Of a stretch of 64,000 bases of DNA, positions 1 through 61,363 are shown in pieces (position 1 is the first letter of the stretch; every line of letters begins with the position of its first letter). Made by a program: the position numbers and the translations under genes. The notes beneath the pieces were generated by a model, which was not told the DNA's origin, did no database searches, and saw nothing but the letters and a program-made list of their open reading frames with translations. The stretch spans positions 146,539 through 210,538 of the forward strand of contig JAFZWG010000072.1 in assembly GCA_017617395.1 (NCBI GenBank), given 5' to 3'. This stretch comes from Lachnospiraceae bacterium. Lineage in GTDB: Bacteria; Bacillota; Clostridia; Lachnospirales; Lachnospiraceae.

Positions 1-546
1 GAGAAGCGCAGCACCGAGCACACCGCCGACACAACCTTCCACGGACTTCTTAGGGCTTAACACAGGAAATGCCTTGTGCTTTCCGATCAACACGCCGACG
101 CAGTACGCGCACGTGTCCGAACCCCAGGCACCCAGGAACACAAGCCATACCAGGAACGCACCGCTCTCAAGCTCGCGGATGCGGAAAATGCAGCACAGCA
201 TGATCGCTACGTAGAACACGCTGAAAAATGCAGCCATCACCTCGGTAAACTGAAATCTCGGATAGCCGATCACGAACGTGACGAGCAACAATAAAACAAG
301 GCACATCACGCAAGGACGGATCGCATTCTCGTAACCGAGCACCATCAGCACATAGTATCCGACCGCCGCCGCATAGCAAATCAGCGTCGGCGCCTTCCAC
401 GGTGCCTTAAAGACGCGGTTGAACTCGAACATACCGATCAGCGAAATCGCCAACAGCACGCCCCAGAGAACGTAGCCGCCGAAGCAGATGGCACCGAAGG
501 CGACCAGCACGAGAATAATCCCGCTGAGCAATCGTTTCTTAAACAT
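1..546 (-). CDS. cdsA: Phosphatidate cytidylyltransferase, 3'-truncated by the window edge
   Basis: Makes CDP-diacylglycerol from phosphatidic acid and CTP, the branch point of phospholipid synthesis, in the cytoplasmic membrane. The first 182 residues are present: a start MFKKRLLSGIILVLVAFGA, several hydrophobic membrane segments, and the SPKKSVEG motif typical of CdsA near residue 170. The C-terminal signature region lies beyond base 1, so completeness cannot be judged. The ATG at 546 follows a GGAGGACTGTGA-type ribosome site and lies 15 bases after the uppS stop. The order uppS-cdsA is the usual one in Firmicutes. The family call is secure; only the missing end is uncertain. Confidence 0.92.
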   Translation of the reverse strand, partial: MFKKRLLSGIILVLVAFGAICFGGYVLWGVLLAISLIGMFEFNRVFKAPWKAPTLICYAAAVGYYVLMVLGYENAIRPCVMCLVLLLLVTFVIGYPRFQFTEVMAAFFSVFYVAIMLCCIFRIRELESGAFLVWLVFLGAWGSDTCAYCVGVLIGKHKAFPVLSPKKSVEGCVGGVLGAALL

Positions 547-561
547 TCACAGTCCTCCAAA

Positions 562-1290
562 TCACTTCACGCCGCCGAATCTGCGATCGCGTCCCTGATA
601 GTACTCGATCGCCTTCTGCAGCTCTTTTTTATTGAAATCCGGCCACAACACATCCGTAAAATAGAACTCGGTATAAGCCAACTGCCACGGCAGAAAATTC
701 GACGTGCGCATCTCTCCGCTCGTCCGGATCATCAGGTCCGGATACGGAATCCCGGCCGTGTCAAAATAAGAGTAGAAAATCTCCTCCGTCAGATCCGAAG
801 CCTTCTTTTTCCCTGCCTCGCAATCCGCGGCAAATGCGCGCGCCGCACGCAGAATCTCATCTCTCCCACCATAGTTAATAGCAACCTGGAACTGTAAACC
901 CGTATTGACCGCAGAAACCTCCTCCAGCTTCCGAATGCTCTCCTGCAGGTCCTCATCCAACGCGGAAATATCGCCGATCACACGAACACGCATATTGTTC
1001 TTGCTGCTTCTGGCGATACTGTCCTTCATGTATTTGCGAAGAAGCTTCATCAAAGCGTCGACCTCGTCCTTCGGCCGAGCCCAGTTTTCCGTGGAAAATG
1101 CATAGACGGTAAGATATTCGATTCCCAGGTTAAACGCATCCTCGCAGATCTGCTCCGCGGTGCGGCTGCCCGCAGCATGCCCCGCATTGCGCGGCAGCAG
1201 GCGCTTTTTCGCCCAGCGTCCGTTTCCGTCCATGATAATGGCAACGTGGCGCGGCACCGGTTTTTCCGAGATGTCCGTCGTCTTACTCAT
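562..1290 (-). CDS. uppS: Undecaprenyl diphosphate synthase (isoprenyl transferase)
   Basis: Condenses isopentenyl diphosphate units onto farnesyl diphosphate to give C55 undecaprenyl diphosphate, the lipid carrier for wall precursors. Diagnostic blocks are HVAIIMDGNGRWAKKR near the N-terminus, with the catalytic Asp in the IIMDGNGRWA motif, and RTSGEMRTSNFLPWQ followed by FYFTDVLWPDF near the C-terminus. I start at the ATG at 1290 (MSKTTDIS, 242 residues) because GGAAGG lies just upstream; the in-frame ATG ten codons earlier has no ribosome site. It sits between frr and cdsA, all on the minus strand. Length is normal for the family. Confidence 0.95.
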   Translation of the reverse strand: MSKTTDISEKPVPRHVAIIMDGNGRWAKKRLLPRNAGHAAGSRTAEQICEDAFNLGIEYLTVYAFSTENWARPKDEVDALMKLLRKYMKDSIARSSKNNMRVRVIGDISALDEDLQESIRKLEEVSAVNTGLQFQVAINYGGRDEILRAARAFAADCEAGKKKASDLTEEIFYSYFDTAGIPYPDLMIRTSGEMRTSNFLPWQLAYTEFYFTDVLWPDFNKKELQKAIEYYQGRDRRFGGVK

Positions 1291-1323
1291 CTTCCATCCT
1301 TCCCGTTCTTCGCATGTCATACG

Positions 1324-1348
1324 AAAAGGGCGTCTGTGACGCCCTTTT
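1324..1348 (-). terminator. Hairpin between frr and uppS
   Basis: Perfect 11-bp stem (AAAAGGGCGTC, loop TGT, GACGCCCTTTT) in the frr-uppS gap. The U tail after the stem is only about four bases, so this is probably a partial terminator or attenuator that lowers expression of uppS and cdsA relative to pyrH-frr. Confidence 0.55.
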
Positions 1349-1386
1349 GCAGTCAGTCCGAAACGATTCTCATACTGTATTGAATC

Positions 1387-1935
1387 TTAAACCGTCATGA
1401 TCTCCTTGGTCTTGTCATCAACGGTCTTGTCGATCAGCTCGATGAACTTGTCGGTCATCTTCTGAGCATCGGTCTCCATCTTCTTGGTCTCGTCCTCGGA
1501 AATCTCCTTGCCGGCCTTCTTGATGGCGTCGTTCGCATCGCGGCGGATGTTGCGGATGGCAACCTTCGCTGCCTCGCCCTTCTTCTTCACATCCTTCGCA
1601 AGCTCCTTACGACGGTCCTCGGTGAGCTCCGGGAACGTAAGGCGAACAACCTTGCCGTCGTTGCTCGGCGTGATACCGATATCGGACGCAAGAATCGCCT
1701 TCTCGATCTCCTTGATCATCTTCGACTCCCAGGGCTGGATCATAATGACACGTGCCTCGGGAACGGAAACGTTCGCAACACCCTGCAGATTCGTCTGCGT
1801 GCCGTAGTAATCAACACGGATCTTATCGAGAAGATGCGGGTTGGCACGGCCTGCGCGGATGTTCGCGTACTCCTCCTTCAAAAAGTCAATCGTCTTGTTC
1901 ATCGACTCCTCAAACGGCTTCAAAACCTCATTCAT
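1387..1935 (-). CDS. frr: Ribosome recycling factor
   Basis: Splits post-termination ribosomes together with EF-G. The 182-residue protein has the canonical length and sequence: an N-terminal helix (EVLKPFEESMNKTIDFLKEEY), the RAGRANPHLLDKIRVDYYGT block, and a C-terminal helical end with DDKTKEIMTV. The ATG at 1935 follows GGAGGTAGCAAA. It is immediately downstream of pyrH (51-base gap) and upstream of uppS, the conserved pyrH-frr-uppS-cdsA order. Nothing unusual in length or composition. Confidence 0.97.
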   Translation of the reverse strand: MNEVLKPFEESMNKTIDFLKEEYANIRAGRANPHLLDKIRVDYYGTQTNLQGVANVSVPEARVIMIQPWESKMIKEIEKAILASDIGITPSNDGKVVRLTFPELTEDRRKELAKDVKKKGEAAKVAIRNIRRDANDAIKKAGKEISEDETKKMETDAQKMTDKFIELIDKTVDDKTKEIMTV

Positions 1936-1986
1936 TTTGCTACCTCCTGTAAACTCTATACTCTTACAAAAAAAACGAAATGTCGT

Positions 1987-2691
1987 TTATACCGTAACCA
2001 CGGTTCCCGTGTTGGTTCCGTTAACGTTCGTCACGATGCTGTTCTCCTCGTTAAGAGAGAACACCAGCGTGGGAATGTTATTCTCCATGCACATTACCGT
2101 CGCCGTGAGATCCAGAACCTTCAGCTTGCGGTCCAGAAGCTCCTGATACGTGACGGTCGTGTACTTCACAGCCGTCGGATCGGTCTTCGGGTCTCCGGTG
2201 TACACACCGTCCACCGCGCGTGCCATCACGATCGCGTCGCAGTCAAGCTGCACCGCACGCAGCGACGTTGCCGTGTCCGTCGAAAAATAAGGATGTCCCG
2301 TGCCGCCCGCAAGGAAGATCACATGACCCGCCTTCATCGCCGCTACGGCCTTATCCTTGGAGAACAACTCGCTCACCGTACCGCAGGCGAACGGCGTGTA
2401 GATGTCCGTCTCCAGCCCGCAGCAGCGGCAGATCTCCGACATATAAATGCAATTCATGACCGTGGCCAGCATGCCGATGGAGTCCGCCTTCGTACGGTCG
2501 ATCGTCTCGCTGCTTCTGCCGCGCCAGAAATTGCCTCCGCCGATGACGATCGCCACCTGCGTGCCGCCGTCAACAAGCGTCTTAATCTGCTTCGCAACCT
2601 CCATGCAGGTCGCCTCGTCGAAGCCGGTCTTCTTCTCGCCGGCGAGGGCTTCCCCGCTCAATTTCAACAAAATTCTTGCGTAAGTGCTCAA
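1987..2691 (-). CDS. pyrH: UMP kinase
   Basis: Phosphorylates UMP to UDP with ATP in pyrimidine nucleotide synthesis. It is an amino-acid-kinase-fold protein: phosphate-binding motifs LLKLSGEALAG at the N-terminus and IVIGGGNFWRG near residue 50, and LAGGTGHPYFSTDTA near residue 130. The start codon is TTG at 2691 (STYARILLKLSG), since GGGAGG lies about six bases upstream and no ATG is available before the conserved N-terminal strand. 234 residues is the usual size. A good promoter precedes it, so it probably heads a pyrH-frr-uppS-cdsA transcript. Confidence 0.96.
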   Translation of the reverse strand: MSTYARILLKLSGEALAGEKKTGFDEATCMEVAKQIKTLVDGGTQVAIVIGGGNFWRGRSSETIDRTKADSIGMLATVMNCIYMSEICRCCGLETDIYTPFACGTVSELFSKDKAVAAMKAGHVIFLAGGTGHPYFSTDTATSLRAVQLDCDAIVMARAVDGVYTGDPKTDPTAVKYTTVTYQELLDRKLKVLDLTATVMCMENNIPTLVFSLNEENSIVTNVNGTNTGTVVTV

Positions 2692-2864: not shown

Positions 2865-3845
2865 CTACTCCTTCACACCGCCGACGGACACGCCGCCAAC
2901 GATATTCTTCGCAAAGAAGATATACACGACGATAACCGGCAGAACCGACAACGCCATCGCGACATACTGGAAACCGAGGTCCTTATCCTTCTCCGTCGCC
3001 GCACGCAGCGTGTAGATCAAAATCGGGAGCGTACGCTTCTTGCTGCTCGAGAGGATCATGGCAGGCATATAGTAGTTGTTCCAGCTTGCGACAAATGCAA
3101 AGATCAACTGTACCGCCAACGCAGGCTTCATCAGCGGAAGCACGATGCGGTTTAAGATGCTGACCTCAAAGCAGCCGTCGATTCTCGCGGCCTCGATCAG
3201 GGACATCGGAAGGTTGCTCTTCATGTACTGCACGATGTAGAAATACGTGACGGGCGCAGCGATCGACGGAACGATCAGCGGGATGAAGCTGTCCTTCATC
3301 TTCAGCGTATCGACAACCAGGCGATAGAAACCGAGCGACGTAACCTGCGTAGGGATCATCATGATCGCAAGAATAAATACGTGAACCGCTTTTCTTCCCT
3401 TAAACCGGTACGCATGGATCGCATACGCGGTCATCATCGAGAAGTAAACGTTCAGAATGGCGCTGGAAAATGCAATGATCGCACTGTTCAGGGTGCCTCT
3501 GAAGAAGTCAAGCGTACTGTTCTGCAGTTTTTTAAGGTTGTTTAAAAGCTGATCTCCGGGCACAAACGAAACGCCTGTGGTGATCTGTGAATGCGAACGG
3601 GTCGCGTTGATGAACAACAGGTAGAACCAGATGAGACACAACACGCTCAACGCGGTGAGCACAAGGTACGCGATCACGCGGATGGTACCCATTCCCATGG
3701 ATTTCTTCACGGTGTACGGGCTCTTCCCTGAGTTCTTCTGAAGCATCTCCTCCGCGGCGATCGCCTGTAACGACGTCTCCTCCGGAGCAGCTTCCGTCTG
3801 ATTCATTTCGTTCGGAATCAGATCCGATTGAATTTTCTTACTCAT
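2865..3845 (-). CDS. Carbohydrate ABC transporter permease, MalG/UgpE type
   Basis: Second membrane subunit of a CUT1-family sugar importer. The protein (326 residues) has a cytoplasmic N-terminal extension of about 50 residues, then about six membrane segments and the EAA loop EAARIDGCFEVSILNRIVLP near residue 230, which docks on the ATPase. The ATG at 3845 (MSKKIQSDL) follows GGAGGTG; an upstream in-frame ATG lacks a ribosome site. It follows the partner permease by 13 bases and is followed by a terminator. No ATPase is encoded nearby, so a shared MsmK-type ATPase elsewhere is likely. Substrate unknown. Confidence 0.9.
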   Translation of the reverse strand: MSKKIQSDLIPNEMNQTEAAPEETSLQAIAAEEMLQKNSGKSPYTVKKSMGMGTIRVIAYLVLTALSVLCLIWFYLLFINATRSHSQITTGVSFVPGDQLLNNLKKLQNSTLDFFRGTLNSAIIAFSSAILNVYFSMMTAYAIHAYRFKGRKAVHVFILAIMMIPTQVTSLGFYRLVVDTLKMKDSFIPLIVPSIAAPVTYFYIVQYMKSNLPMSLIEAARIDGCFEVSILNRIVLPLMKPALAVQLIFAFVASWNNYYMPAMILSSSKKRTLPILIYTLRAATEKDKDLGFQYVAMALSVLPVIVVYIFFAKNIVGGVSVGGVKE

Positions 3846-9461: not shown

Positions 9462-11455
9462 ACACCTTCACTTTCTTCCGAAGGCTGTCCGGCCTTCGGC
9501 GCCTGCCACGACATGTAGTCGCACTCGGGGTAGTTCGAGCAGCCGTAGTAACGCTTGCCGCGCTTCGTACGGCGGATCGACAGCTCGTTTCCGCACTTCG
9601 GGCACGGAATTCCGGTCTTCTCGACGTAAGGTTTCGTGAAACGGCACTCCGGGAAACCGGGGCAGGCAAGGAATTTGCCGTGCGGGCCGTATTTGACGAC
9701 AAGCATGCGGCCGCACATCTCGCACGGCTGGTCCGTCGTCTCGTCCGCAATCTTCACCGTCGTCAGGTCCTTCTCCGCGTTCTTCACGGCCGAGACAAGG
9801 TCAGGATAGAAATTGCTGACAACCGTCTTCCAGTTGACCGTACCGTCCTCAACACCGTCGAGCAACAGCTCCATGTTGGCGGTGAAATCAACCGCAACGA
9901 TGCTCGGGAACGCCTTCTTCATCATCTCGTTCACAGCCTCGCCGAGCTCGGTCACAAAGAGATTCCGACCATCCTTGGCGATATAATGGCGCGTCAAAAG
10001 TGTCGTGATCGTCGGCGCGTACGTACTCGGACGGCCGATGCCGAGTTCCTCCATGGTGCGGACAAGGCTCGCCTCGGTGTAGTGTGCCGGAGGCTGCGTA
10101 AAATGCTGCTCTCCCGTCACTTCCTGCGATGCGAACACAAGGCCCTTCTGCGGAAGATAGCGGCAGCTCTTCTCCTGCTCCTTCTCGTCGGTCGCCTCGG
10201 TGTAGACACTGCGGAAACCTTCGAAAACGCACTTCGAAGCGGACGCCGAAAAATCATGCTTACCGTCGCTGATGGTGAGCGTCGTAACATTCGTCACGCT
10301 GTCGGCCATGCGGCTCGCGATGAACCGCTTCCAGATCAGCTGGTACAGGCGGTACTGCTCGTTCGTCAGCTGGTCCTTCACCGCGGACGGGGTAATTTCA
10401 ATATAGGTAGGACGAATCGCTTCATGCGCGTCCTGAATCTTCTTGCCGGACGTATCCTCCTTGCGGCTCTCGCCGAGGAAATCCGCACCGTAGCGTTCCT
10501 TGATGAACGTGCTTGCCGCCGCAGCCGCCTCGTCGCTGATACGCGTCGAATCGGTACGGAGGTAGGTGATCAGACCGACGCTGCCCTGGCCTTTGATCTC
10601 AACACCCTCGTAGAGCTGCTGCGCAACGCGCATCGTCTTGATGGTGCTGTAGTTGAGCTTGCGGGAAGCATCCTGCTGCAGCGTACTCGTCGTATACGGA
10701 AGCGGAGCCTTCTGCTTGCGCTCGCCGGTCTTGGTCTCGGTCACGGAGAACTTCGAGCCGTTCACGGAGGCGATGATCGCGTCCGCCTCGGCCTTCGAAG
10801 CCAGCTCCTTCTTGCCCTTCAAAACATACTCTGCAACGATCGGCTCCTTGTGGACACCGTCGTTGAAACGTCCCTCGATGGACCAGTACTCGCGGCTCTC
10901 GAATGCCGCAATCTCGTTCTCGCGGTCGCTGATGATGCGCAAAGTCACCGACTGCACACGGCCGGCGCTTAAGCCTCTCTTGACCTTCGCCCACAAAATC
11001 GGGCTGATCTCATATCCCACCATACGGTCGAGAACACGTCTCGCCTGCTGTGCATCCACAAGATCCATATTGATGTTGCGAGCGCCCGCCAGGGAAGACT
11101 TTACAGCATTTTTCGTAATCTCGTTGAAGGTGATACGGCGGGTGTCCTTCTCGTCGAGCTTAAGGACCTCCATCAGGTGCCACGAAATCGCCTCTCCCTC
11201 ACGGTCGGGGTCGGTTGCGAGGAACACGCGCTTGGCGGCCTTCGCCTTCTTGCGAAGCTCCGCAAGTGTGTCACCCTTGCCGCGGATGGTAATGTAATGC
11301 GGTTCAAAGTCATGCTCCGTGTCCACGCCCAAAGAACTCTTCGGAAGGTCGCGGACATGTCCGCCCGACGCAATCACGGCATAATCCTTGCCTAAAAACT
11401 TCGCGATGGTTTTTGCCTTTGCGGGGGACTCCACAATGACCAGATACTTGTTCAT
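9458..11455 (-). CDS. topA: DNA topoisomerase I (type IA)
   Basis: Relaxes negative supercoils behind polymerases. A Toprim domain opens the protein (YLVIVESPAKAKTIAKFLG and ATDPDREGEAISWHLMEVL). The active-site tyrosine is in GLITYLRTDSTRISDEA near residue 300. Two C-terminal zinc ribbons (CEMCGRM with a later CPGFPEC; CPKCGNE with CSNYPEC) end the protein. I start at the ATG at 11455 (MNKYLVIVES, 665 residues) because GGAGAG is just upstream; 12 further residues are in frame but unsupported. It lies between dprA and codY with overlapping or short gaps, so these are one operon. Confidence 0.96.
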   Translation of the reverse strand: MNKYLVIVESPAKAKTIAKFLGKDYAVIASGGHVRDLPKSSLGVDTEHDFEPHYITIRGKGDTLAELRKKAKAAKRVFLATDPDREGEAISWHLMEVLKLDEKDTRRITFNEITKNAVKSSLAGARNINMDLVDAQQARRVLDRMVGYEISPILWAKVKRGLSAGRVQSVTLRIISDRENEIAAFESREYWSIEGRFNDGVHKEPIVAEYVLKGKKELASKAEADAIIASVNGSKFSVTETKTGERKQKAPLPYTTSTLQQDASRKLNYSTIKTMRVAQQLYEGVEIKGQGSVGLITYLRTDSTRISDEAAAAASTFIKERYGADFLGESRKEDTSGKKIQDAHEAIRPTYIEITPSAVKDQLTNEQYRLYQLIWKRFIASRMADSVTNVTTLTISDGKHDFSASASKCVFEGFRSVYTEATDEKEQEKSCRYLPQKGLVFASQEVTGEQHFTQPPAHYTEASLVRTMEELGIGRPSTYAPTITTLLTRHYIAKDGRNLFVTELGEAVNEMMKKAFPSIVAVDFTANMELLLDGVEDGTVNWKTVVSNFYPDLVSAVKNAEKDLTTVKIADETTDQPCEMCGRMLVVKYGPHGKFLACPGFPECRFTKPYVEKTGIPCPKCGNELSIRRTKRGKRYYGCSNYPECDYMSWQAPKAGQPSEESEGV

Positions 11456-11497: not shown

Positions 11498-12652
11498 TTA
11501 CAGGCGCAGCGCGACGCCGGGTTCCTCCGCCCGGTACATCCCGTCCGCAGCCTGCCGGATTCGTCCGTTTTGCTCGAGCGTATACAGCGTTCGAAGCAAC
11601 ACGGCAGGCGTCAGTCCGCTCTCCCAGACCAGCTGGTCGAAAGATTTCGGACTCAAACGCAGAGAAGCATACACCATTTTTTCTTCGCTTGCAAGAGTCA
11701 ATTTTAGCTTTTTTTCGTTTTCTTTTTCAAATGATGTCAGACAAAGTTGACCGTCATCCTCGGTTTGCAATGCAAAACCACCGAGTTGTTCGCGCAAAAC
11801 CGCAAGTATTTCCCCCGGGTCCGTGACGAGCTGTGCGCCCTGTTTGATCAGTTTGTGACACCCCTCGCTGTTCTCGTCCGTGATGCGCCCCGGAATCGCA
11901 AACACCGCCTTCCCCTGGTCGAGCGCGCGGTCCACCGTGATCATCGTCCCGCTCCGAAGTTTCGCCTCTACGACGAGCACCGCATCCGAAAGTCCCGCGA
12001 TCAACCGGTTCCGGTTCGGAAAATGATGCCTAAGCCCCGGCACGCCCGGCCCGTACTCCGAGATCACACACCCCTGCTTCGTGATCTCGCGGTACGTATC
12101 GACGTTCTCAAGAGGATACGCCGTTCCGATACCGGAGCCTAATACCGCAACCGTGATGCCGCCTCCCTCCAATGCGCCCCGGTGCGACGCCACATCGATG
12201 CCCATCGCAAGGCCGCTCACCACCGTGACGCCCGAATCCCCGAGGATCCGTCCGAAGCGGTACGCAACCGTCTCTCCGTACGGCGATGACAGCCTGGTGC
12301 CGACGATCGCCACCGAGCATTGTCTCTGCGGCGGAAGTTTCCCCTGATAAAAGATCCCAAGCGGCGGGTCCGGTATTTCCCGAAGGCACTTCGGAAAATG
12401 CTCCTCCGTATGCCACACAAACCACGCATCCAACCGGTCAAGCTCCCGCCGGATTCTCGTCACATACCGCTCCGTGCATGTCTTCGCGAGCCGCCCGCTC
12501 TCCGTCTTCGTAAGTCCTCCCTCATTTACAAGGCGCTCCTCCCCGGCATAAAAGATCCCTTCCGGGCTTTCAAACTTCTCTAATAGTTTCACGCGCTGCT
12601 CGTGGTCTGTCACCGCGGCGCACAGCCAGATGCGGTATTCTCCTTCCGTCAT
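11498..12652 (-). CDS. dprA: DNA processing protein DprA
   Basis: Binds incoming single-stranded DNA during natural transformation and loads RecA. The Rossmann-like core has VAIVGTRLSSPYGE, SGLAMGIDVASHRGALEGGG and AVLGSGIGTAYPLEN, and the C-terminal winged helix is present (LTPAVLLRTLYTLEQNGRI). I start at the ATG at 12652 (MTEGEYRIW, 384 residues) because GGAGGTG is about six bases upstream. It follows comM by five bases. DprA is widespread in bacteria not known to be competent, so its presence is compatible with DNA uptake but does not prove it. Confidence 0.94.
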   Translation of the reverse strand: MTEGEYRIWLCAAVTDHEQRVKLLEKFESPEGIFYAGEERLVNEGGLTKTESGRLAKTCTERYVTRIRRELDRLDAWFVWHTEEHFPKCLREIPDPPLGIFYQGKLPPQRQCSVAIVGTRLSSPYGETVAYRFGRILGDSGVTVVSGLAMGIDVASHRGALEGGGITVAVLGSGIGTAYPLENVDTYREITKQGCVISEYGPGVPGLRHHFPNRNRLIAGLSDAVLVVEAKLRSGTMITVDRALDQGKAVFAIPGRITDENSEGCHKLIKQGAQLVTDPGEILAVLREQLGGFALQTEDDGQLCLTSFEKENEKKLKLTLASEEKMVYASLRLSPKSFDQLVWESGLTPAVLLRTLYTLEQNGRIRQAADGMYRAEEPGVALRL

Positions 12653-12657
12653 CGCAC

Positions 12658-14163
12658 TCACCTCCATTCCGTGCGGAAGCCGGCCGCCTCCGCCATATGC
12701 TCCGGCAAAACCTTCTCACTGTCCGTCAGGTCCGCGATCGTGCGCGCCACCTTCCACATGCGATGATATCCGCGCGCCGTACAATTCGTCCGCTCTGCGT
12801 ACTCCGACGCGACGCGCTCCGCTTCCCCGGTCACCGCGAAGAACTCCGACAGCTGGCTTCCCGGCACATCCGAATTATATCGGAAGGAAGTGCCCTTATA
12901 CCGCTTCGCCTGACGCCGCCTCGCAATCTCCACACGCTTTCGCACCGCCGCGCTTTTCTCTCCGTTGGAACCGCCCGTGAGCTCCTTCGGAGACAACCCG
13001 TGCACAACCACCGAAATGTCGATTCGATCAAGGATCGGCCGGCTGATTCGCGAGCGGTACCGTGTGATCTGATCCGGCGTGCAGCGACAACGATTCCTAT
13101 CAGGATAATATCCGCACGGGCACGGATTCATCGCCGCGACGAGCATAAACGATGCGGGGTACAACACGCTCCCCTGGAGTCTTGCGACCTGAATACACCG
13201 TTCCTCCAAAGGCTGTCGCAAGATCTCGATGCTCGCCCTCGGAAACTCGGGCAGCTCGTCAAGAAACAACACCCCGCCGGAGGCAAGCGACATCTCCCCG
13301 GGCATCGGGGACCTTCCGCCTCCCGCAAGCGCTGTCACCGTCGCGGTATGGTGCGGCGCGCGGAACGGGCGCTTTTTTAGCATCCCACCCTCCGAAGGCA
13401 CCAGTCCGGCCACACTGTACACTTTCGTGATCTCCAGACTCTCCTCAAACGTAAGCTTCGGAAGTATTCCCGGAATCCGCCTCGCAAGCATCGTCTTGCC
13501 GGCTCCGGGCGGTCCGCTCAACAAAAGATTGTGCATCCCCGCCGCGGCAATCTCCGCAGCTCGCTTAGCCAGAAACTGCCCGTGAATATCGCAAAAATCC
13601 TCCGCTGTGCTCTCGTCCGGGCGAAACCGAACGGGCTTCGCAAGTGTCCCGCCGACCCCCGTAAAATGCTCGACCGCCTCTGTAAGAGTCCTCACGCCGT
13701 ACACACGGATGCCTTCGACGAGCGCGCCTTCCTCCGCATTTTCCGCGGGAAGCAGGACCGAGTGAAATCCTGCCTTCTTTGCGGCGATCACACACGGAAG
13801 AACGCCCGGCACGGCGCGCACGGTGCCGTCGAGGCCGAGCTCCCCTAAGATTCCCGCACCCTCGGTGACATCCCACGGCAGAAAGCCCTGGTTGCAGAGA
13901 ATTCCCAAAGCAATCGCCAGGTCGTATCCGGTTCCGCCCTTTCGCTCGTCCGCCGGTGAAAGATTTACGGTGATCCGCTTCGCGGGCACAGGGTAGCCCG
14001 AGTTTCGGAGCGCCACGCGCACGCGTTCTCGTGCCTCCTTCACCTCGCTCGACAGGTATCCGACCATATCAAAGCACGGAAGACCGTTGCCGACGTCCAC
14101 CTCGACTTTGATGACCGCCGCTTCGATTCCCGTGACCGAAAAACTTTGCAAAGAACAAAACAT
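12658..14163 (-). CDS. comM: YifB/ComM family magnesium chelatase-like AAA+ ATPase
   Basis: ComM is a hexameric helicase that promotes branch migration when transformed DNA is recombined. N-terminal Lon-protease-like domain (about 1-170), then AAA+ core with Walker A GPPGAGKTMLARRIPG, Walker B GGVLFLDELPEF, and a C-terminal Mg-chelatase domain ending in ARTIADLTDSE. The ATG at 14163 (MFCSLQSFSVTGIEA, 501 residues) matches the family start and has AGAGG upstream; a longer reading adds 40 unsupported residues. First gene of a comM-dprA-topA-codY run, with a perfect 16-bp palindrome just upstream. Confidence 0.93.
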   Translation of the reverse strand: MFCSLQSFSVTGIEAAVIKVEVDVGNGLPCFDMVGYLSSEVKEARERVRVALRNSGYPVPAKRITVNLSPADERKGGTGYDLAIALGILCNQGFLPWDVTEGAGILGELGLDGTVRAVPGVLPCVIAAKKAGFHSVLLPAENAEEGALVEGIRVYGVRTLTEAVEHFTGVGGTLAKPVRFRPDESTAEDFCDIHGQFLAKRAAEIAAAGMHNLLLSGPPGAGKTMLARRIPGILPKLTFEESLEITKVYSVAGLVPSEGGMLKKRPFRAPHHTATVTALAGGGRSPMPGEMSLASGGVLFLDELPEFPRASIEILRQPLEERCIQVARLQGSVLYPASFMLVAAMNPCPCGYYPDRNRCRCTPDQITRYRSRISRPILDRIDISVVVHGLSPKELTGGSNGEKSAAVRKRVEIARRRQAKRYKGTSFRYNSDVPGSQLSEFFAVTGEAERVASEYAERTNCTARGYHRMWKVARTIADLTDSEKVLPEHMAEAAGFRTEWR

Positions 14164-14179
14164 CGCATTTTCCTCTCTT

Positions 14180-14272: not shown

Positions 14273-14353
14273 AAAAGATGCATTTTCCGGAAAGCGGTTC
14301 GTCACTACGACGAAACCGGAACCTCATTTTTGTATACTCTGCCGAAATGACCG

Positions 14354-15589: not shown

Positions 15590-15606
15590 TCATTTTCCGA
15601 AAAATG

Positions 15607-16629
15607 CTACCTCTGCACGCGTCCGCTTCCGTCGCCGCCCGCAAGCGCCTCGACCTCCGCGCGCGACACATGGTTGAAGTCGCCGGGAATCGTGTGCTTT
15701 AATGCACTTGCCGCAACCGCGAACTCCAAAACCTCCGCAGCGCTCTTGCCGTCCGCAAGGCCGCAGATCAGACCGGCCGCGAACGAATCGCCGCCGCCTA
15801 CGCGGTCCACAATGTGAAGCTTGTACGTCTTCGAGTGATAGAAGCCGTCGTCACTCAAGATCGCTGCCGACCACGCATTGTCCGATGCGGAGAAGCTCTC
15901 GCGGAGCGAGCTCACGACATATGTAAAGCCGAACTTCGCCTTCATCTCCTTAAACATCGCCTCGTAGCCCGCAAGCTCCAGCGAACCCTTGGTAACATCC
16001 GTGTTGCCCGGCACGAAGCCGAGGACCTTCTGCGCGTCCTCCTCGTTGCCGATGCACACGTCGACATATTGCATCAGATCGGTCATGACCGACTTTGCCT
16101 TCTCGCTGCTCCACAGCTTCTTGCGGTAGTTGAGGTCGCACGAAACCGTGACGCCGTGGCGCTTTGCGGCAATCAACGCAGCCTTCGTCACCGCAGTCGC
16201 CGCGTCGCTGATCGCAGGCGTGATCCCCGTAAAATGGAACCAGTCCGCACCCTCAAAAATCGCATCAAAATCAAAGTCCTCCGGCTTCGCCTCCGCAATC
16301 GCGCTGTGCGCACGGTCGTAGATGACCTTCGAAGGCCGAACCGAGGCTCCTGTCTCAAGATAGTAGATACCAAGGCGCTCTCCGCCGCGCACAATCTGCG
16401 AGCAGTCGACACCTTCCTTGCGAAGCGCCATCAATGCGCTGTCGCCGATTTCATTGGCCGGCAGTTTCGTCACATACGACGCCTCGTGGCCGAAGCCCGC
16501 GAGCGACACCGCAACGTTCGCCTCACCGCCGCCGTAGCAGACATCGAAACTGTCCGCCTGCACAAATCTCTGATTGCCCGGCGTCGACAGCCGAAGCATG
16601 ATCTCGCCGAGCGTAACGATCTTTGCCAT
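15607..16629 (-). CDS. kdgK: 2-dehydro-3-deoxygluconokinase (PfkB family sugar kinase)
   Basis: Phosphorylates 2-keto-3-deoxygluconate to KDPG, the last step before aldol cleavage in hexuronate breakdown. PfkB-family features: MAKIVTLGEIMLRLSTPGNQ at the start, the GGGEANVAVSLAGFG substrate motif near 35, and the catalytic DRVGGGDSFAAGLICGL near 280 with the general-base Asp. 340 residues from the ATG at 16629, which has GGAGG upstream; the longer reading is unsupported. It is divergent from uxaC across a 302-base control region, which supports the KDG assignment over other PfkB sugars. Confidence 0.85.
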   Translation of the reverse strand: MAKIVTLGEIMLRLSTPGNQRFVQADSFDVCYGGGEANVAVSLAGFGHEASYVTKLPANEIGDSALMALRKEGVDCSQIVRGGERLGIYYLETGASVRPSKVIYDRAHSAIAEAKPEDFDFDAIFEGADWFHFTGITPAISDAATAVTKAALIAAKRHGVTVSCDLNYRKKLWSSEKAKSVMTDLMQYVDVCIGNEEDAQKVLGFVPGNTDVTKGSLELAGYEAMFKEMKAKFGFTYVVSSLRESFSASDNAWSAAILSDDGFYHSKTYKLHIVDRVGGGDSFAAGLICGLADGKSAAEVLEFAVAASALKHTIPGDFNHVSRAEVEALAGGDGSGRVQR

Positions 16630-47087: not shown

Positions 47088-47155
47088 CCTTCCTCCCCGC
47101 AGGCGACATTGGAAAATGCCGCCCGATCACATCCCATATTCTGTCAATAATTCAG

Positions 47156-52746: not shown

Positions 52747-53754
52747 TTACCTCTTGGTGCCCTGGTACTCCTCCGTGGGATTTCTGCGTAATAGATCCAT
52801 CACGGAGTCGCGTACCGACTCACCATGGAACAAAACATCGTTGATCTCCTCCACGATCGGGAGGCACACCTTGTACTTCTTGCCCAGAGCCAGCGCGGCC
52901 TTCGCGCAGTTGACACCCTCGACAACCTGGCCGACCTCCGCAAGCGCCTCCTCGGTCGTCTTGCCCTGACCGATCAGGAATCCTGCGTTGTGGTTGCGGC
53001 TGTGATTACTCGTGCACGTAACGATCAGATCGCCGATGCCCGAGAGGCCGTAGAACGTCGACTCCTTGCCGCCCATCTTCGCACCCAGACGGCTGATCTC
53101 CGCGATACCGCGGGTCATCAAAGCAGCCTTCGTGTTGTCGCCGTACTCCAGGCCGTCCACCATACCGGCCGCAAGCGCGATGACGTTCTTAAGCGATCCG
53201 CCGAGCTCGATGCCGAGCACGTCGTCGCTCGTGTAAACGCGGAACATATCCGCGAAAAATGCTTCCTGCACGATCTTGGCAACCTCGGGATCCTCCGCGC
53301 CCACAACGACCGCCGTGGGAATGTTGCGGCTGACCTCCTCCGCATGGCTCGGGCCGGACAAAACCGCCAGGCGCGCGCCCGGGATCTCCTCACCGATGAT
53401 CTGCGTCATCGTAAGGAGCGTCTTCTCCTCGATACCCTTGCTCACGTTGACGATGATCTGGCCCTCGTGAACATACTTCTTCATCTTTGCAGCCGTCTCG
53501 CGGACATAGGGCGAAGCCACGGCACAAACCAGAATCTCCTCGTCGTCGCAAGCGTCCGCAAGGTCCGTCGTCAGACGGATCGACGCAGGCAAAGTCGCTC
53601 CGGGAAGGTTCGTCACGTGCGTGCGGTCCGCCGCCAGCGCAGCGATCTCCCGCTCCACCGCGGACCACAGCGTCACCTGCTGTCCCTTGTTTGCCAGCTC
53701 GATTGCGAGTGCGGTTCCCCACGTTCCCGCGCCGAGCACACTGATCTTACTCAT
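52747..53754 (-). CDS. gpsA: Glycerol-3-phosphate dehydrogenase [NAD(P)+]
   Basis: Makes sn-glycerol-3-phosphate from dihydroxyacetone phosphate for phospholipid synthesis. N-terminal Rossmann motif SVLGAGTWGTALA, VNVSKGIEEKTL near 105, AVLSGPSHAEEVSRNIPTAV near 140, catalytic Lys region LGGSLKNVIALAAGMVDGL near 190 and the C-terminal NHSRNHNAGFLIGQG. The ATG at 53754 (335 residues) follows AGGAGG by nine bases; a TTG three codons earlier is less likely. Its start overlaps the plsY stop by eight bases, so translation is coupled. GpsA and PlsY act in consecutive steps. Confidence 0.95.
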   Translation of the reverse strand: MSKISVLGAGTWGTALAIELANKGQQVTLWSAVEREIAALAADRTHVTNLPGATLPASIRLTTDLADACDDEEILVCAVASPYVRETAAKMKKYVHEGQIIVNVSKGIEEKTLLTMTQIIGEEIPGARLAVLSGPSHAEEVSRNIPTAVVVGAEDPEVAKIVQEAFFADMFRVYTSDDVLGIELGGSLKNVIALAAGMVDGLEYGDNTKAALMTRGIAEISRLGAKMGGKESTFYGLSGIGDLIVTCTSNHSRNHNAGFLIGQGKTTEEALAEVGQVVEGVNCAKAALALGKKYKVCLPIVEEINDVLFHGESVRDSVMDLLRRNPTEEYQGTKR

Positions 53755-54433
53755 TGCTGCCAACCTCCTGTTTTTCTTGCTCGGAGTCCGTACCAGAAAC
53801 CGGCTCCGGCTCCACCTTCACATGGTGGCCGATTTTATTTTCCGTACCGTTCAACAGGCGCTTAATGTTCGCCCGATGCATATAGATACCGGATATCGTG
53901 TATAACAATGCAGCCGCAACCATCCAGCGGTAGTAGCTGTGTCCTCGGTAGACGATCGCCATGTAGGTCGGGAACAAAGCAACCACGAACAGCGATCCTA
54001 CGGAGACATATTTCCAGATGTACACAATCAATGCGAACGCGAACGTGAAAAACACCAGTCTCCAGTCGACGCAGAGCATTGCGCCCGCCGTCACGGCGAT
54101 TCCCTTGCCGCCGCGGAACTGCATCCAGAACGGGAAGCAATGTCCGATCACGGCACCGAATCCCAGAATCTCACAAAGCAAAATAACGTACGGCTTACCC
54201 GGAAAGATAGCAAACCGAAGAATCATTCCCGGGATTAAAACTTTCAAAAGATCCCCGATAAATACGAGGCTTCCGCTCTTTCTTCCGAGCGTCCGCATGG
54301 CGTTCGTTGTGCCCGCGTTGCCGCTACCGTAGCGGCGAATATCGATTCCGTGCGCCTTTCCGACGAAAAATGCAGTCTGCAGATTCCCGCAGAGATACCC
54401 GACCAGCAGGCAGATCAATGCCTTGATCACCAT
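53747..54433 (-). CDS. plsY: Acyl-phosphate:glycerol-3-phosphate acyltransferase
   Basis: Integral membrane enzyme that transfers the acyl group from acyl-phosphate to glycerol-3-phosphate, giving lysophosphatidic acid. Conserved cytoplasmic motifs: GSGNAGTTNAMRTLG near 38-52 and FRGGKGIAVTAGAML near 105-120, among five to six membrane segments. The C-terminal 30 residues are charged and longer than usual (228 residues in total). The ATG at 54433 has AAGGAGGG upstream. It is between der and gpsA, the typical Firmicutes grouping. Confidence 0.94.
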   Translation of the reverse strand: MVIKALICLLVGYLCGNLQTAFFVGKAHGIDIRRYGSGNAGTTNAMRTLGRKSGSLVFIGDLLKVLIPGMILRFAIFPGKPYVILLCEILGFGAVIGHCFPFWMQFRGGKGIAVTAGAMLCVDWRLVFFTFAFALIVYIWKYVSVGSLFVVALFPTYMAIVYRGHSYYRWMVAAALLYTISGIYMHRANIKRLLNGTENKIGHHVKVEPEPVSGTDSEQEKQEVGSNE

Positions 54434-54460: not shown

Positions 54461-55789
54461 TTATTTCTTTTCTTCGTCGCGCTGACGGATGATAAACTTC
54501 AACGATGTGCCCTCGAAGCCGAACGCCTCGCGGATCTTGTTCTCGATGTAACGCGTGTACGAAAAATGCATCAGTTCCTTGTCGTTTACGAAGATCACGA
54601 ATGTCGGCGGCTTCACAGCGACCTGCGTGATGTAGAACAGCTTCAGTCTCCGGCCCTTGTCCGACGGCGGCTGCTGCAGCACGGTAGCCTCCATCATGAT
54701 CTCGTTGAGAACACCCGTGCCGATGCGCTTGTTTTGATTCTCGATGACCTTCTCGATCTCCTCGAAGAGCTTCGGAAGACGCTGTCCCGACAGCGCGGAG
54801 ATAAACACAATGTCCGCGTACGGAATGAACGAGAGAATCTCGCGGATGCGATTTCTGTGCTCATAGATGGTCTTGTCGTCCTTCTCGATGGCGTCCCACT
54901 TGTTGACGGCGATGATAATGCCCTTGCCGCGCTCGTGCGCAATGCCGGCGATCTTCGCATCCTGCTCGGTCACGCCCTCGGTCGCATCGATCACGACAAC
55001 GGCGACATCACAGCGCTCCACGGCTGCAACGGTGCGGATGACGCTGTAGCGTTCAATCTCCTCGGTAATGCGAGCTTTGCGGCGCAGACCGGCCGTGTCG
55101 ATGAAGACGTACTCTTTATGGTTGTACGTAACCTCCGTATCGATCGCATCGCGCGTCGTGCCGGCGATGTCCGAGACGATCACGCGGTTCTCGCCCAACA
55201 GGCGGTTGACGATGGAGGATTTGCCGACGTTCGGCTTTCCGACGATGGCCACCTTCGGGCGCGTGTCTTCCGCATCACCCGCGGAGCTCTCCGGAAAATG
55301 CTTCACTACCTCGTCCAAAAGCTCGCCGAAACCGAGCCGTGAGGACGCTGAAACCGGGATCGGATCGCCGATTCCCAGGTTGTAAAATTCATAGACGTCA
55401 GCCTCGTACTTGTTGAAGCTGTCGACCTTGTTGACACACAAAACGACAGGCTTTCCGGAGCGGCGCAGCATGTCCGCAACCTTGCCGTCCGAGTCCACGA
55501 GACCCTCGCGGACATCCGTCACGAAAATGATCACGTCCGCAGACGCGATGGCAATCTCCGCCTGCTCGCGCATGTGGCGAAGCATCGCATCCTTCGTGTC
55601 CGGCTCGATACCGCCGGTGTCCACCATCGTAAACGCGTGCGAAAGCCACGTCGCATCGGCATAGATCCGGTCTCTGGTGACACCGGGGTTGTCCTGCACG
55701 ATGCTGATCTGCTCTCCCGCGATCGCGTTGAAAAGAGTCGATTTTCCTACATTCGGGCGACCCACGATCGCCACAATCGGCTTGCTCAT
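54461..55789 (-). CDS. der: Ribosome biogenesis GTPase Der (EngA)
   Basis: Essential tandem GTPase that assists 50S subunit maturation. Two G domains: first P-loop IVGRPNVGKSTLFNAIAG at residue 7 with DTGGIE and NKVD, second P-loop IVGKPNVGKSSIVNRLLG near 180 with DTAGLRRKARI and NKWD near 295. A C-terminal KH-like domain follows (TGVLNEIMMEA to the end). 442 residues. The ATG overlaps the stop of the upstream radical-SAM gene by four bases. Confidence 0.97.
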   Translation of the reverse strand: MSKPIVAIVGRPNVGKSTLFNAIAGEQISIVQDNPGVTRDRIYADATWLSHAFTMVDTGGIEPDTKDAMLRHMREQAEIAIASADVIIFVTDVREGLVDSDGKVADMLRRSGKPVVLCVNKVDSFNKYEADVYEFYNLGIGDPIPVSASSRLGFGELLDEVVKHFPESSAGDAEDTRPKVAIVGKPNVGKSSIVNRLLGENRVIVSDIAGTTRDAIDTEVTYNHKEYVFIDTAGLRRKARITEEIERYSVIRTVAAVERCDVAVVVIDATEGVTEQDAKIAGIAHERGKGIIIAVNKWDAIEKDDKTIYEHRNRIREILSFIPYADIVFISALSGQRLPKLFEEIEKVIENQNKRIGTGVLNEIMMEATVLQQPPSDKGRRLKLFYITQVAVKPPTFVIFVNDKELMHFSYTRYIENKIREAFGFEGTSLKFIIRQRDEEKK

Positions 55790-57111
55790 AACTGTTCTTC
55801 ATTCCCTTCTTCCACGAGCGATTCCACAAAATCATACCCTTCGGATTTTACAATACGCACCCGTGTTTGTAAAGCATTTTCAATGTCCGAGACGGTCTTG
55901 TCATCAAGCAAAACCGGCTCTCCGCTGCGCAGCAGATTCTCGGGTAAAATCAGCTTTCCGCGGATCTCCCGGTCCTTCATCTGAGCGATGATATCCTGCC
56001 CGGTTAAAAGCCCCGATACCGTAATGGTTTCCCCGAAGAAATGGTTGATGATCGGGATGACCGTCACGTGCAGATTCGGGTACACCTCGCAGACTCGGTT
56101 GCACAACTTCTCGATCGTCGGCGCGATCAAAACACCCGTCGCGATCGTCGCCTCGTGCACCCGGTCGTCGCCCTCACGGTCCGAGAGCTCCCATTCGACC
56201 TCCTCGGTCAACGAACGGACCATTCCGACGCCGTTTTCGATCTGCGGATAGCCCTCGTATTCATCCTCCGAAGGAAGCAGCAGTCCAGCCGTCAAAAACC
56301 ACTCGTCGGAGGCAAACACAAAGCGCGTGTCGAAATATTCGAGGCAGATCTTCTGCCATTTGGCGATGATGCCGATCACCTCGCGCGACTCGTCCTTCGT
56401 GAAGGTCCGTATCTTCGGCAAATGATCACGGTATTTCGTAAGTCCCACCGGCACGACGCTTAAGCTCTGCAGGTTCGGCAGAAACTCCGTTAAGTCGTGG
56501 ATGGTGCGCTCGAGCTCGGCGCCGTCGTTGTACTCCGGAACGAGCACGATCTGGCCGTTCATCGTGATGCCGGCCTCCTTGAGGCGGCGCATTTTCCGGA
56601 TGATCTCGCCTGCGAAGCGGTTGTGGAGCATCTTGCATCGAAGCTCCGGGTTTGTGGTGTGAACCGATATGTTCATCGGCGAGAGCTTGTAAAAGCAGAT
56701 GCGCTCCAGCTCTTCGTCCGAGACGTTCGTAAGTGTTACATAGTTGCCCTGCAGGAACGAAAGACGCGTGTCATCGTCCTTAAAATACAGCGTCTCGCGC
56801 ATGCCCGGGGGCATCTGGTTGATGAAGCAGAACACGCAGTCGTTGCGGCACGAGCGGTAGTCGTCCATCAACGACTCGGCGAAGACAAGTCCAAGCTCCT
56901 CGCACTCGCCCTTTTTGATCGTGACCTCGCTCTCCTCGCCGTCCCGCAGGAAAGAAAGCGTCAGCTGCGTCTCTTCCTCCTCGAAACGGAAGTCCAAAAC
57001 GTCGATGACGTCGCGTCCGTTCATTCGGAGAAGACGGTCGCCCCTCTTTAGTCCCGCCTTGTAAGCGGGGCTTCCCGGGATGACATCCACGATGGAATGC
57101 TCATGGTTCAC
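55786..57111 (-). CDS. DUF512 family protein with PDZ and radical-SAM-like domains
   Basis: Function not established. 441 residues from a GTG at 57111 (NHEHSIVDVIPGSPAYKAG), chosen because GAAAGGAAG lies about nine bases upstream. An N-terminal PDZ-like segment (about 5-55) precedes a CRNDCVFCF cluster near 95, the CX3CX2C pattern that binds the iron-sulfur cluster of radical SAM enzymes. A TIM-barrel-like middle follows, and DUF512 forms the C-terminal part (about 270-430). It nearly always sits before der in Clostridia, as here with a four-base overlap, which suggests a link to ribosome assembly or modification. Confidence 0.88.
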   Translation of the reverse strand: MNHEHSIVDVIPGSPAYKAGLKRGDRLLRMNGRDVIDVLDFRFEEEETQLTLSFLRDGEESEVTIKKGECEELGLVFAESLMDDYRSCRNDCVFCFINQMPPGMRETLYFKDDDTRLSFLQGNYVTLTNVSDEELERICFYKLSPMNISVHTTNPELRCKMLHNRFAGEIIRKMRRLKEAGITMNGQIVLVPEYNDGAELERTIHDLTEFLPNLQSLSVVPVGLTKYRDHLPKIRTFTKDESREVIGIIAKWQKICLEYFDTRFVFASDEWFLTAGLLLPSEDEYEGYPQIENGVGMVRSLTEEVEWELSDREGDDRVHEATIATGVLIAPTIEKLCNRVCEVYPNLHVTVIPIINHFFGETITVSGLLTGQDIIAQMKDREIRGKLILPENLLRSGEPVLLDDKTVSDIENALQTRVRIVKSEGYDFVESLVEEGNEEQL

Positions 57112-57159: not shown

Positions 57160-57987
57160 TTACGTCTTCGGCCGCATCATCAAAAACGCCGCGTTGCTTC
57201 CTCTCTTCCCGCCCGTTGCGCGGTGGGAAAATGTAATCTCCGGACGGCACATCGTGCAAAAGCCGCTCACAGAGATATTCTCTGCCTTAAGTCCCGCCGA
57301 AAGAAGCGTGAGCCGGTTCGCCTCCCACAGATTGACATGAGGCTTGCATCCCTCCTTGCGGATCGTCGCCGCACCGCCGTACGCCTCGTCGAAGACGACC
57401 GCCACCTCCTCGCCGACCTCGAAGCACTCCGGGCCGATGGACGGTCCGATCACCGCAACGATGTCCGCGGGGTCGCACGAAAACTCCTTCTGCATCAGCA
57501 AAACGGTTTCTTTCGCGATACCGCCGACGGTTCCCCGCCAGCCCGCATGGCAAAGTCCGATTGCGCGCGCCTTCGGATCGTACAGATACACCGGCACACA
57601 GTCGGCCGTGAAGACCGTGAGCGCAACGTTGCACTCATTTGTCACAAGACCGTCGATATCGTCGTAGGGAATCTCCCGCTCGATGCCGATGCCGCGGTCC
57701 GAAGCCGTCACACGCATCACGTTCACGGTGTGCGTCTGCTTCGTAAAGACCGCCGAGCCCTCCGGAATCGCCAGGTTTCGAAAGATTCTCCGGTAATTCT
57801 CCCTCACGTTCGCGGGATCGTCCCCGCGGTTAAAACCGAGGTTCATCGACGAACAATATCCGTCGCTCACGCCGCCAAAGCGCGTGGAAAATGCATGGCA
57901 CAACTCGCCGTCATACTCCGACAGCGCCGGATATGTGATCACCCGGACGCCCAGATCATCCGGCTCGGTGATGCGGTAACAATCCAC
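57160..57987 (-). CDS. pgeF: Laccase-domain protein, YfiH/PgeF family
   Basis: Family members are multi-purpose purine nucleoside phosphorylases and, in E. coli, edit peptidoglycan errors. The metal-site residues are visible: His in FTKQTHTVNVMR, Cys in FTADCVPVYLYD and His in LCHAGWRGTVGG. I start at the GTG at 57987 (DCYRITEPDD, 275 residues) because GGAGG is seven bases upstream; two ATGs further up lack a ribosome site. It is encoded 48 bases before the DUF512 gene and probably in the same transcript. Confidence 0.9.
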   Translation of the reverse strand: MDCYRITEPDDLGVRVITYPALSEYDGELCHAFSTRFGGVSDGYCSSMNLGFNRGDDPANVRENYRRIFRNLAIPEGSAVFTKQTHTVNVMRVTASDRGIGIEREIPYDDIDGLVTNECNVALTVFTADCVPVYLYDPKARAIGLCHAGWRGTVGGIAKETVLLMQKEFSCDPADIVAVIGPSIGPECFEVGEEVAVVFDEAYGGAATIRKEGCKPHVNLWEANRLTLLSAGLKAENISVSGFCTMCRPEITFSHRATGGKRGSNAAFLMMRPKT

Positions 57988-60780: not shown

Positions 60781-60800
60781 GCAAACGCGCGCGAATCGGC

Positions 60801-60843
60801 AAAAAAAGTCCCCCGAAAACGGCACAAAAAGACCGTTCCGGGG
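60801..60843 (-). terminator. Second terminator after rplS
   Basis: Stem of CCCCG and AACGG arms paired with CCGTT and CGGGG, interrupted by a small internal loop, followed on the minus strand by ACTTTTTTTG. The strongest U run in the window. Confidence 0.8.
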
Positions 60844-60853
60844 AAAATGAAAA

Positions 60854-60878
60854 TCGCGCCCGGAAAAACCGGGCGCGA
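60854..60878 (-). terminator. First terminator after rplS
   Basis: Perfect 10-bp stem TCGCGCCCGG/CCGGGCGCGA with a five-base loop, followed by ATTTTCATTTTC on the minus strand. Together with the hairpin 10 bases further on it forms a tandem terminator. Confidence 0.8.
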
Positions 60879-60899
60879 ATGCTTGTTGACTTTGGTTGA

Positions 60900-61253
60900 T
60901 TACCGAAGAACTTCCTTAACCTTGGCAGCCTTGCCGGTTCTCTCACGCAGGTACGTGAGCTTCGCACGGCGAACCTTACCGCGACGGATCACGGTGACGC
61001 TCTCAAGGATCGGGGAATGAAGCGGCCAGGTCTTCTCAACACCGCAGCCGTTCGAGTTCTTGCGAACCGTGAACGTCTCGTGAACGCCGCCGTTCTGTCT
61101 CTTTACGACCACACCCTCAAAAGCCTGGGTACGCTCGCGGTTTCCTTCCTTTACCTTCGACAATACGCGAACCGTATCACCGACTGCGAAGGAATCAACA
61201 GTCTCCTTCATGTTCTCTTTTGCAAGAGATGCCATGTACTCTACATCTGTCAT
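60900..61253 (-). CDS. rplS: 50S ribosomal protein L19
   Basis: Large-subunit protein at the 30S-50S interface. Conserved blocks [32 protein letters not shown] and [20 protein letters not shown] near the C-terminus. 117 residues, complete. The ATG at 61253 follows AAGGAGG by about eight bases. A separate promoter and a leader of about 75 bases with a small hairpin (CCGCT/AGCGG) precede it, which may be an L19-type autoregulatory leader, though I could not match a known fold. Confidence 0.97.
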
Positions 61254-61334
61254 TGGTATGACCTCCTTCTAAATGCTGCGGTCTTCATACTGCCGCTCAT
61301 CGGCACAGCGGAACATCGCGTCTCACGGGTATCA

Positions 61335-61363
61335 AATATACCATATCCGTTTGGAAAATGCAA
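61335..61363 (-). promoter_or_regulatory. Promoter of rplS
   Basis: Minus-strand TTGCAT (61358-61363), 17-base spacer, TATATT (61335-61340). The -35 overlaps a copy of the repeated GGAAAATGC motif (61353-61361). It lies immediately after the trmD stop. Confidence 0.6.

Follow-up and report, generated by a model that had tools for sequence, protein, structure and literature searches.

An over-represented 10-bp motif in a rumen Lachnospiraceae genome as a probable DNA uptake sequence read by a type IV pilus

A 64,000-nucleotide stretch of a Lachnospiraceae draft genome (contig JAFZWG010000072.1, positions 146,539 to 210,538; hereafter the window) contains 32 copies of the 9-mer GRAAAATGC (R, G or A), 20 on the plus strand and 12 on the minus strand, between positions 183 and 61361. 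The 9-mer abridges a longer motif of 10 bp with graded specificity, cG(g/a)(a/c)AAAT(g)(c/a). We propose, at a probability of roughly two in three, that a type IV pilus recognises the motif as an uptake sequence, one convergent with the DNA uptake sequence (DUS) of Neisseria and the uptake signal sequence (USS) of Haemophilus; it would be a member of neither. The case for this reading is that the motif matches known uptake sequences in its scale, pair geometry, graded specificity, codon independence and near balance of strands, and in having a related word in another genus. No rival was found that accounts for these properties together.

In the proposed mechanism, the 10-bp tag would be bound by a minor pilin or by the tip complex of the pilus, which would retract via PilT and pass the DNA on to ComEA and ComEC, to be imported and recombined. 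Cells preferring tagged DNA would re-import tagged alleles, and tags would thus build up by molecular drive wherever genes tolerate them. That this machinery imports DNA and recognises the motif is inferred, as is the identity of the pilin involved.

The host is, judging from protein similarity, an uncultured rumen Lachnospiraceae. Search matches of the Der protein of the window are mostly Lachnospiraceae, the nearest being RUG13295 (96% identical) and RGIG8148 from water-buffalo rumen (94%); a search for 16S gave no match in the draft.

Abundance and shape of the motif

One hundred dinucleotide shuffles of the window gave a mean of 1.53 copies and a maximum of 5. An earlier note on this stretch, made from the window alone, had given the same 32 copies and the same 20 to 12 division against about one expected. 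The enrichment is not confined to the window. In the draft genome that holds it (G000; 2.34 Mb in 97 contigs, 85% complete), GRAAAATGC occurs 927 times (454 forward, 473 reverse), mostly within genes, and the reversed word 28 times (10 and 18). The genome-wide signal at the DNA level that the note had suspected is borne out by these counts and by the codon independence, dual orientation and intergenic excess described below. Short asymmetric words are typical of modification and defence systems, and a recognition motif of a methylation, modification or defence system would share this form; to our knowledge, however, such motifs do not usually build up to an excess of tens of fold, and we regard this explanation as very unlikely.

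The most enriched words are CGGAAAATG and GGAAAATG; GGAAAATGA and GGCAAATG are also enriched, and position -1 favours C. A single-substitution scan of 704 kb of G000, with expectations from a third-order Markov model, found 114 copies of CGGAAAATGC where 4.6 are expected. Substitutions are poorly tolerated at the first G and in the AAAT core, with at most 10 copies per changed word. The third motif position takes A, C or T, the fourth takes C and weakly T, and the flanking and last positions take several bases. The 9-mer of the earlier note is a good description of this motif, but it is cut short. When 8-mers were searched for enrichment in both gene senses, GGAAAATG ranked top in G000 (z 28.5) and in a second motif-rich genome, G167 (z 19.7).

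Codon independence, strand and spacing

Gene-level analysis covered 687 kb of G000 (572 genes, own gene calls) and 338 kb of G167, and used 100 shuffles of synonymous codons within genes as a codon-aware null. In G000 genes, GRAAAATGC occurs 84 times in sense and 103 times in antisense, against 7.8 and 10.4 after shuffling; the corresponding counts in G167 are 44 and 45, against 7.6 and 5.2. The density of the 9-mer between genes exceeds that in coding sequence 4.2-fold in G000 and 1.9-fold in G167. The broad motif is similarly dense in tandem, convergent and divergent intergenic gaps of G000 (2.6, 3.2 and 2.4 per kb).

These results disfavour codon bias, codon-pair bias or base composition as the source of the signal in G000 and G167: the excess in G000 is about tenfold over synonymous shuffles in both senses and is accompanied by the intergenic excess. 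Two observations point the other way. Copies are unevenly distributed over reading frames in G000 genes (62 of the 84 sense copies fall in one frame, and 73 of the 103 antisense copies likewise in one), and many genomes of the family, with or without PilT, have several times more CGGAAAATGC than its reversed control. Ordinary members among 397 family genomes also usually have several times fewer copies of the reversed word, so a baseline coding effect exists. Bias of this kind may account for some of the excess in G029, G199 and G229, for which genome counts only are considered, and is highly improbable as the general explanation. The earlier note is upheld in its roughly four-fold intergenic enrichment, and its statement that frame and sense vary is correct except that the frames are uneven. 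The codon shuffle keeps the codon usage of each gene but not codon-pair preference. The note had named two refuting outcomes, counts near a codon-aware expectation and an enrichment limited to the window, and neither was observed, the former being judged on the 687 kb.

The orientation of the motif, which the note had proposed to map, was compared with GC skew in draft contigs as a proxy of replication strand, each site being counted once. The G-rich strand carries 132 of 277 copies of GRAAAATGC in G000 (132:145, p 0.47) and 60 of 115 in G167 (60:55, p 0.71), that is, near balance, and contains about 87.5% and 91% of gene bases, respectively. The union of GRAAAATGC and CGRAAAATG leans to the G-rich strand in G000 (248 of 445; 248:197, p 0.018) and not significantly in G167 (105 of 187; 105:82, p 0.11). 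Any replication-strand lean is at most slight, with 56% or less on the G-rich strand.

Directional segregation signals such as the FtsK-orienting polar sequences (KOPS) and the SpoIIIE recognition sequences (SRS), read by FtsK or SpoIIIE, are short oligomers and would be genome-wide, as the motif is. They show strong polarity from origin to terminus, which this proxy does not reveal, and the near-balance makes such a signal scarcely credible here. In favour of a Chi-type recombination hotspot, read by AddAB or RecBCD and accumulated by selection, Chi sites are likewise short asymmetric words in large excess, the motif is genome-wide in G000 and its core-word union leans slightly to the G-rich strand. 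Chi sites, however, are usually clearly skewed to the leading strand, a skew that GRAAAATGC alone does not show in the GC-skew counts. Nor would Chi predict the fourfold intergenic excess of G000 or the unenriched stretches of the congeners G162 and G168. With little or no strand polarity, weakness in congeners and an intergenic excess, the motif differs from Chi sufficiently for us to consider this explanation quite unlikely.

The spacing of the motif in G000 fits random placement (coefficient of variation 0.950 versus 0.981, sd 0.040), and that in G167 is slightly clumped (1.068 versus 0.989, sd 0.063), with seven gaps over 6 kb where 3.6 are expected. One stretch of 8.4 kb in G167 (L133, 3200-11620) is without a motif, and seems to span what we take, from N-terminal sequences, to be the dnaA-dnaN-recF-gyrB region. 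A depletion of the motif in mobile DNA was considered and could not be established: the motif-poor loci L012 and L116 encode ordinary chromosomal families or proteins with no match (10 of 21 proteins scanned). Motif pairs in head-to-head orientation at 8-12 bp number seven against 0.6 expected, and pairs within 40 bp overall show no clear excess (24 versus 19). USS likewise show an intergenic excess and head-to-head pairs.

Sites for a nucleoid or chromosome-organising protein, scattered along the chromosome, would be in keeping with the near strand balance, the roughly random spacing in G000 and the graded specificity. The broad motif occurs at 0.79 per kb in G000 and only varies from 0.31 to 1.20 per kb between stretches, which indicates that no strong regional domain exists in the stretches read and argues against such a site, as do the different word of the genus g74 and the weakness of the motif in congeners. 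We consider a nucleoid site unlikely. Uptake is favoured because a related word is found in another genus and because a route of pilus, ComEA and ComEC is present in the genus.

Conservation of sites between relatives, a further check named in the note, was assessed with each site again counted once, against a background of 18-21% for 9-mers. Sites are identical at 9 of 25 aligned positions between G000 and G167 (background 18.5%, one-sided p 0.030), at 5 of 10 between G000 and RUG13295 (20.7%, p 0.038) and at 4 of 8 between G000 and RGIG8148 (17.6%, p 0.037). The three comparisons, all of which share G000, suggest site conservation and provide modest evidence for it.

Related words in the genus and the family

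Among 22 genomes of the genus, the ratio of the motif to its reversed control ranges from 2.4 to 69.8. Twelve genomes are strong (at least 22), two are intermediate (13 to 16) and eight are weak (at most 8.6). In the stretches of G162 and G168 that were read, GGAAAATG is not enriched in genes; those of G163 were below the length for gene calls and were left out of the gene-level reading.

The family comparison comprised the 397 genomes and 80 named loci, with G401 (12% coding by the gene caller) and G062 (only about 22 kb) excluded from the gene-level sample. By inspection of the table by eye, CGGAAAATGC exceeds 100 copies in seven of the 397 genomes (G000, G167, G073, G397, G229, G149 and G089), the others having 87 or fewer. 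The genus g74 appears to use a related, dialect-like word: GGNCAATGC occurs 850 times versus 65 reversed in G073 and 734 versus 68 in G397, two species of g74, compared with 104 versus 43 in G000. The top 8-mers enriched in both gene senses in G073 are GGTCAATG, GGGCAATG and GGCCAATG (z 4.8, 4.6 and 3.2), and GGNCAATG is found 31 times in sense and 42 times in antisense, against 6.6 and 6.4 in codon-shuffled genes.

Smaller signals, each with few copies, were obtained in sense and antisense for GGTAAATG in G139 (11 and 6 versus 2.1 and 1.2 codon-shuffled), GGCAAATG in G154 (7 and 10 versus 1.9 and 0.7) and GGAAAATG in G089 (9 and 9 versus 3.0 and 1.5). The top 8-mers of these three genomes have z values of 3.4-3.9, where chance tops in motif-free genomes reach about 3.4, and 3.7 in G162; for the words of G139 and G154, the codon shuffle is the better support. 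G073, G089, G139 and G229 were chosen as outliers in genome-wide counts and their excess of GGAAAATG is therefore a selected one, while GGNCAATG and GGTAAATG are not the words for which they were chosen. The words of G073, G139, G154 and G089 appear to fit a common GGnnAATG frame. No word of the GGNNAATG class is enriched in both senses in the sampled PilT-less genomes G035, G043, G059 and G141. Excess in the sense direction only was seen for GGAAAATG in G252 and G043 and for GGNCAATG in G141.

Pilus and DNA-entry genes

A search for competence pilus genes, as the note had advised, located a type IV pilus with PilT, ComEA and ComEC in members of the genus. ComEC is present in 20 of the 22 genomes and ComEA lies over the cut-off in 21; full-length PilB, with an adjoining PilT-type match, is found in 17. 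ComEC appears split or interrupted in G153 (C63) and G159 (C57), both motif-weak, where an assembly error is possible; other species of the genus with an intact ComEC frame are equally motif-weak. Pilus operons were read in G167, G170, G162, G168 and G154. The G167 operon is arranged in the order PilB, PilT, PilC, two pilins, PilD, PilM, PilO and more pilin-like proteins, and Pfam matches among ten scanned proteins support the prepilin peptidase, PilM, T2SSF and N-methylation signatures. Its proteins that we presume to be PilO, PilV, PilX, FimT and PilW were so labelled from position and N-terminal sequence. In G000, ComEA and ComEC share a contig, and a PilT-family gene is located on a different one. 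Both G000 (C97, 37242-38255) and G167 (C5, 108062-109078) have a second PilT-family ATPase gene away from the contig of the pilus operon.

A FimT-like minor pilin is a candidate for the receptor, on evidence that is suggestive only. Six motif-rich species have proteins 46-77% identical to the FimT-like protein of G167, and nine further species show 33-41% identity, with the motif-rich G152 among the nine; the Spearman correlation of identity with the motif is 0.63 (n 15), which is confounded by phylogeny. The Pfam match of the protein is to the N-terminal methylation motif only, and a profile search against solved structures matches the N-terminal parts of pilins only.

Several observations weigh against the uptake reading, in addition to the lean of the core-word union in G000. 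In G000 the contig ends within PilB and truncates the pilus operon, and this draft yielded no FimT-like gene. In the motif-poor G162 and G168 the ComEC frame is intact and the pilus operon looks complete, and the machinery thus does not explain the difference in motif within the genus. The motif-rich G229 (CGGAAAATGC 112 versus 1 reversed) is without a pilus-type PilB or PilT match. Among the other 19 genomes compared, PilT-less G141 has 137 copies of GGNCAATGC versus 14 reversed, likewise a high ratio, and these are sense-biased in its genes (16 sense, 3 antisense); reversed-word ratios can mislead. The intergenic excess is absent in G073 (0.53-fold). A family-wide signal was rejected, as in the 80 named loci the GGNNAATG class is not more frequent above z 3 than control words are (6 against 5); above z 4, only L021 (z 7.6) remains in the class, and one control word does likewise. 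Finally, no word of the motif class is enriched in both senses in the sampled PilT-bearing genomes G361, G411, G252 and G339. Uptake without specificity would likewise leave such relatives without a word, but the link between pilus and motif is weakened nonetheless.

PilT was also considered as a predictor of the motif across the family and, in a comparison by eye with no statistic, found insufficient: it lies over the cut-off in 240 of the 397 genomes, and G229 contradicts it.

Comparison with known systems

The motif resembles the DUS of Neisseriaceae, as described in two papers (PMC5031613, PMC12616744), in its hundreds of short copies and in dialects between relatives; the type IV pilus and ComEC that go with the DUS are present in the genus here too, in motif-poor members as well as motif-rich ones. 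It matches neither the DUS nor the USS consensus as quoted in the portion available of the former. The DUS is bound by the minor pilin ComP, whereas the sequence here is unrelated, the host belongs to Bacillota and the reading pilin is a conjecture. Likeness to the USS of Pasteurellaceae (Haemophilus) extends to a motif of 9-10 bp, a density near one per kb and dialects, the differences being the unrelated sequence, the Gram-positive lineage and an uptake role that is, here, a proposed one. The competence pilus of Streptococcus pneumoniae (ComGC-GG) is a Gram-positive pilus with minor pilins implicated in DNA binding; the operon here differs in that it encodes PilT and more pilin-like proteins. 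DNA binding by the pneumococcal pilus is described as charge-based, with no sequence preference, in the part of the source available (PMC12040237).

According to the accessible text of a 2025 paper, sequence-specific uptake is known only from two Gram-negative families (PMC12616744). A paper on Veillonella screened for over-represented words and, in the portion at hand, settled on none (PMC5397411), and a literature search returned no uptake-sequence paper for Lachnospiraceae or Clostridia among the matches listed. We think the chances somewhat better than even that the motif represents a third independently evolved system of sequence-specific uptake, the first in Bacillota, with genus-level GGnnAATG dialects, read by a pilus and shaping the genomes of rumen Lachnospiraceae. 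If true, a third origin in a monoderm lineage would provide an independent case on drive versus selection for tags, a search for the receptor could pair pilins with dialects, and tagged DNA could permit the laboratory transformation of uncultivated-type gut bacteria.

Copies in the window and minor observations

By our own gene calls, 23 of the window copies are coding, eight are intergenic (in 4,396 intergenic bp) and one lies at a gene edge (Table 1), close to the nine intergenic copies of the earlier note. dprA and comM, which the note had recognised and treated as undecisive, are both over their TIGR cut-offs.

Table 1. Copies of the 9-mer and two context genes in the window, with site identity in relatives (L020 to L023) where compared.
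Feature	Position	Strand	Context
GGAAAATGC copy	183..191	+	coding antisense
GAAAAATGC copy	223..231	+	coding antisense
GGAAAATGC copy	1093..1101	+	coding antisense
GGAAAATGC copy	3465..3473	+	coding antisense
GAAAAATGC copy	11106..11114	-	in topA, sense
dprA	11498..12667	-	TIGR00732, E 4.8e-71, over cut-off; context, not decisive
GGAAAATGC copy	12393..12401	+	in dprA, antisense
yifB/comM-type AAA ATPase	12658..14151	-	TIGR00368, E 1.6e-157, over cut-off; context, not decisive
GGAAAATGC copy	13736..13744	-	in yifB/comM, sense
GGAAAATGC copy	14165..14173	-	intergenic
GGAAAATGC copy	14280..14288	-	intergenic by own gene call; included if the upstream ORF has a longer start
GAAAAATGC copy	15599..15607	+	gene edge; head-to-head with CATTTTCC word starting at 15591
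GAAAAATGC copy	17607..17615	-	coding antisense
GGAAAATGC copy	19828..19836	-	intergenic
GGAAAATGC copy	21504..21512	+	intergenic
GGAAAATGC copy	24332..24340	-	coding sense
GAAAAATGC copy	31360..31368	-	intergenic by own gene call
GAAAAATGC copy	31500..31508	-	intergenic by own gene call
GAAAAATGC copy	34769..34777	+	coding antisense
GGAAAATGC copy	35452..35460	-	coding sense
GAAAAATGC copy	35546..35554	+	coding antisense
GAAAAATGC copy	36184..36192	+	coding antisense
GAAAAATGC copy	36873..36881	+	coding antisense
GGAAAATGC copy	39492..39500	+	coding antisense
GAAAAATGC copy	40969..40977	+	coding antisense
GGAAAATGC copy	46667..46675	-	coding sense; altered in L020, L021
GGAAAATGC copy	47111..47119	+	intergenic
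GAAAAATGC copy	53254..53262	+	in gpsA, antisense; identical in L020, L021
GAAAAATGC copy	54365..54373	+	in plsY, antisense; identical in L021, one change in L020
GAAAAATGC copy	54561..54569	+	in der, antisense; identical in L020, L021, L022, L023
GGAAAATGC copy	55293..55301	+	in der, antisense; identical in L020, one change in L021
GGAAAATGC copy	56589..56597	-	in TIGR03279-like (DUF512-type) gene, match below model cut-off; sense; altered in L020, L021
GGAAAATGC copy	57886..57894	+	coding antisense; identical in L021, altered in L020
GGAAAATGC copy	61353..61361	+	intergenic; identical in L020, one change in L021

Another word, GAGCTTGCGG, occurs ten times in the window against 0.24 expected. 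It is found mostly on the sense strand of genes (30 sense, 4 antisense in the 687 kb of G000), and is therefore probably a coding effect. A dispersed repeat family is suggested in G168 (L184-L190) by words like GAGAAGTGAA and AGTGAATTTT, which are found 9-11 times in 138 kb. A group of words centred on GGCTACCAAA, separate from GGTAAATG, is repeated about nine times in 60 kb of G139 (L175-L177).

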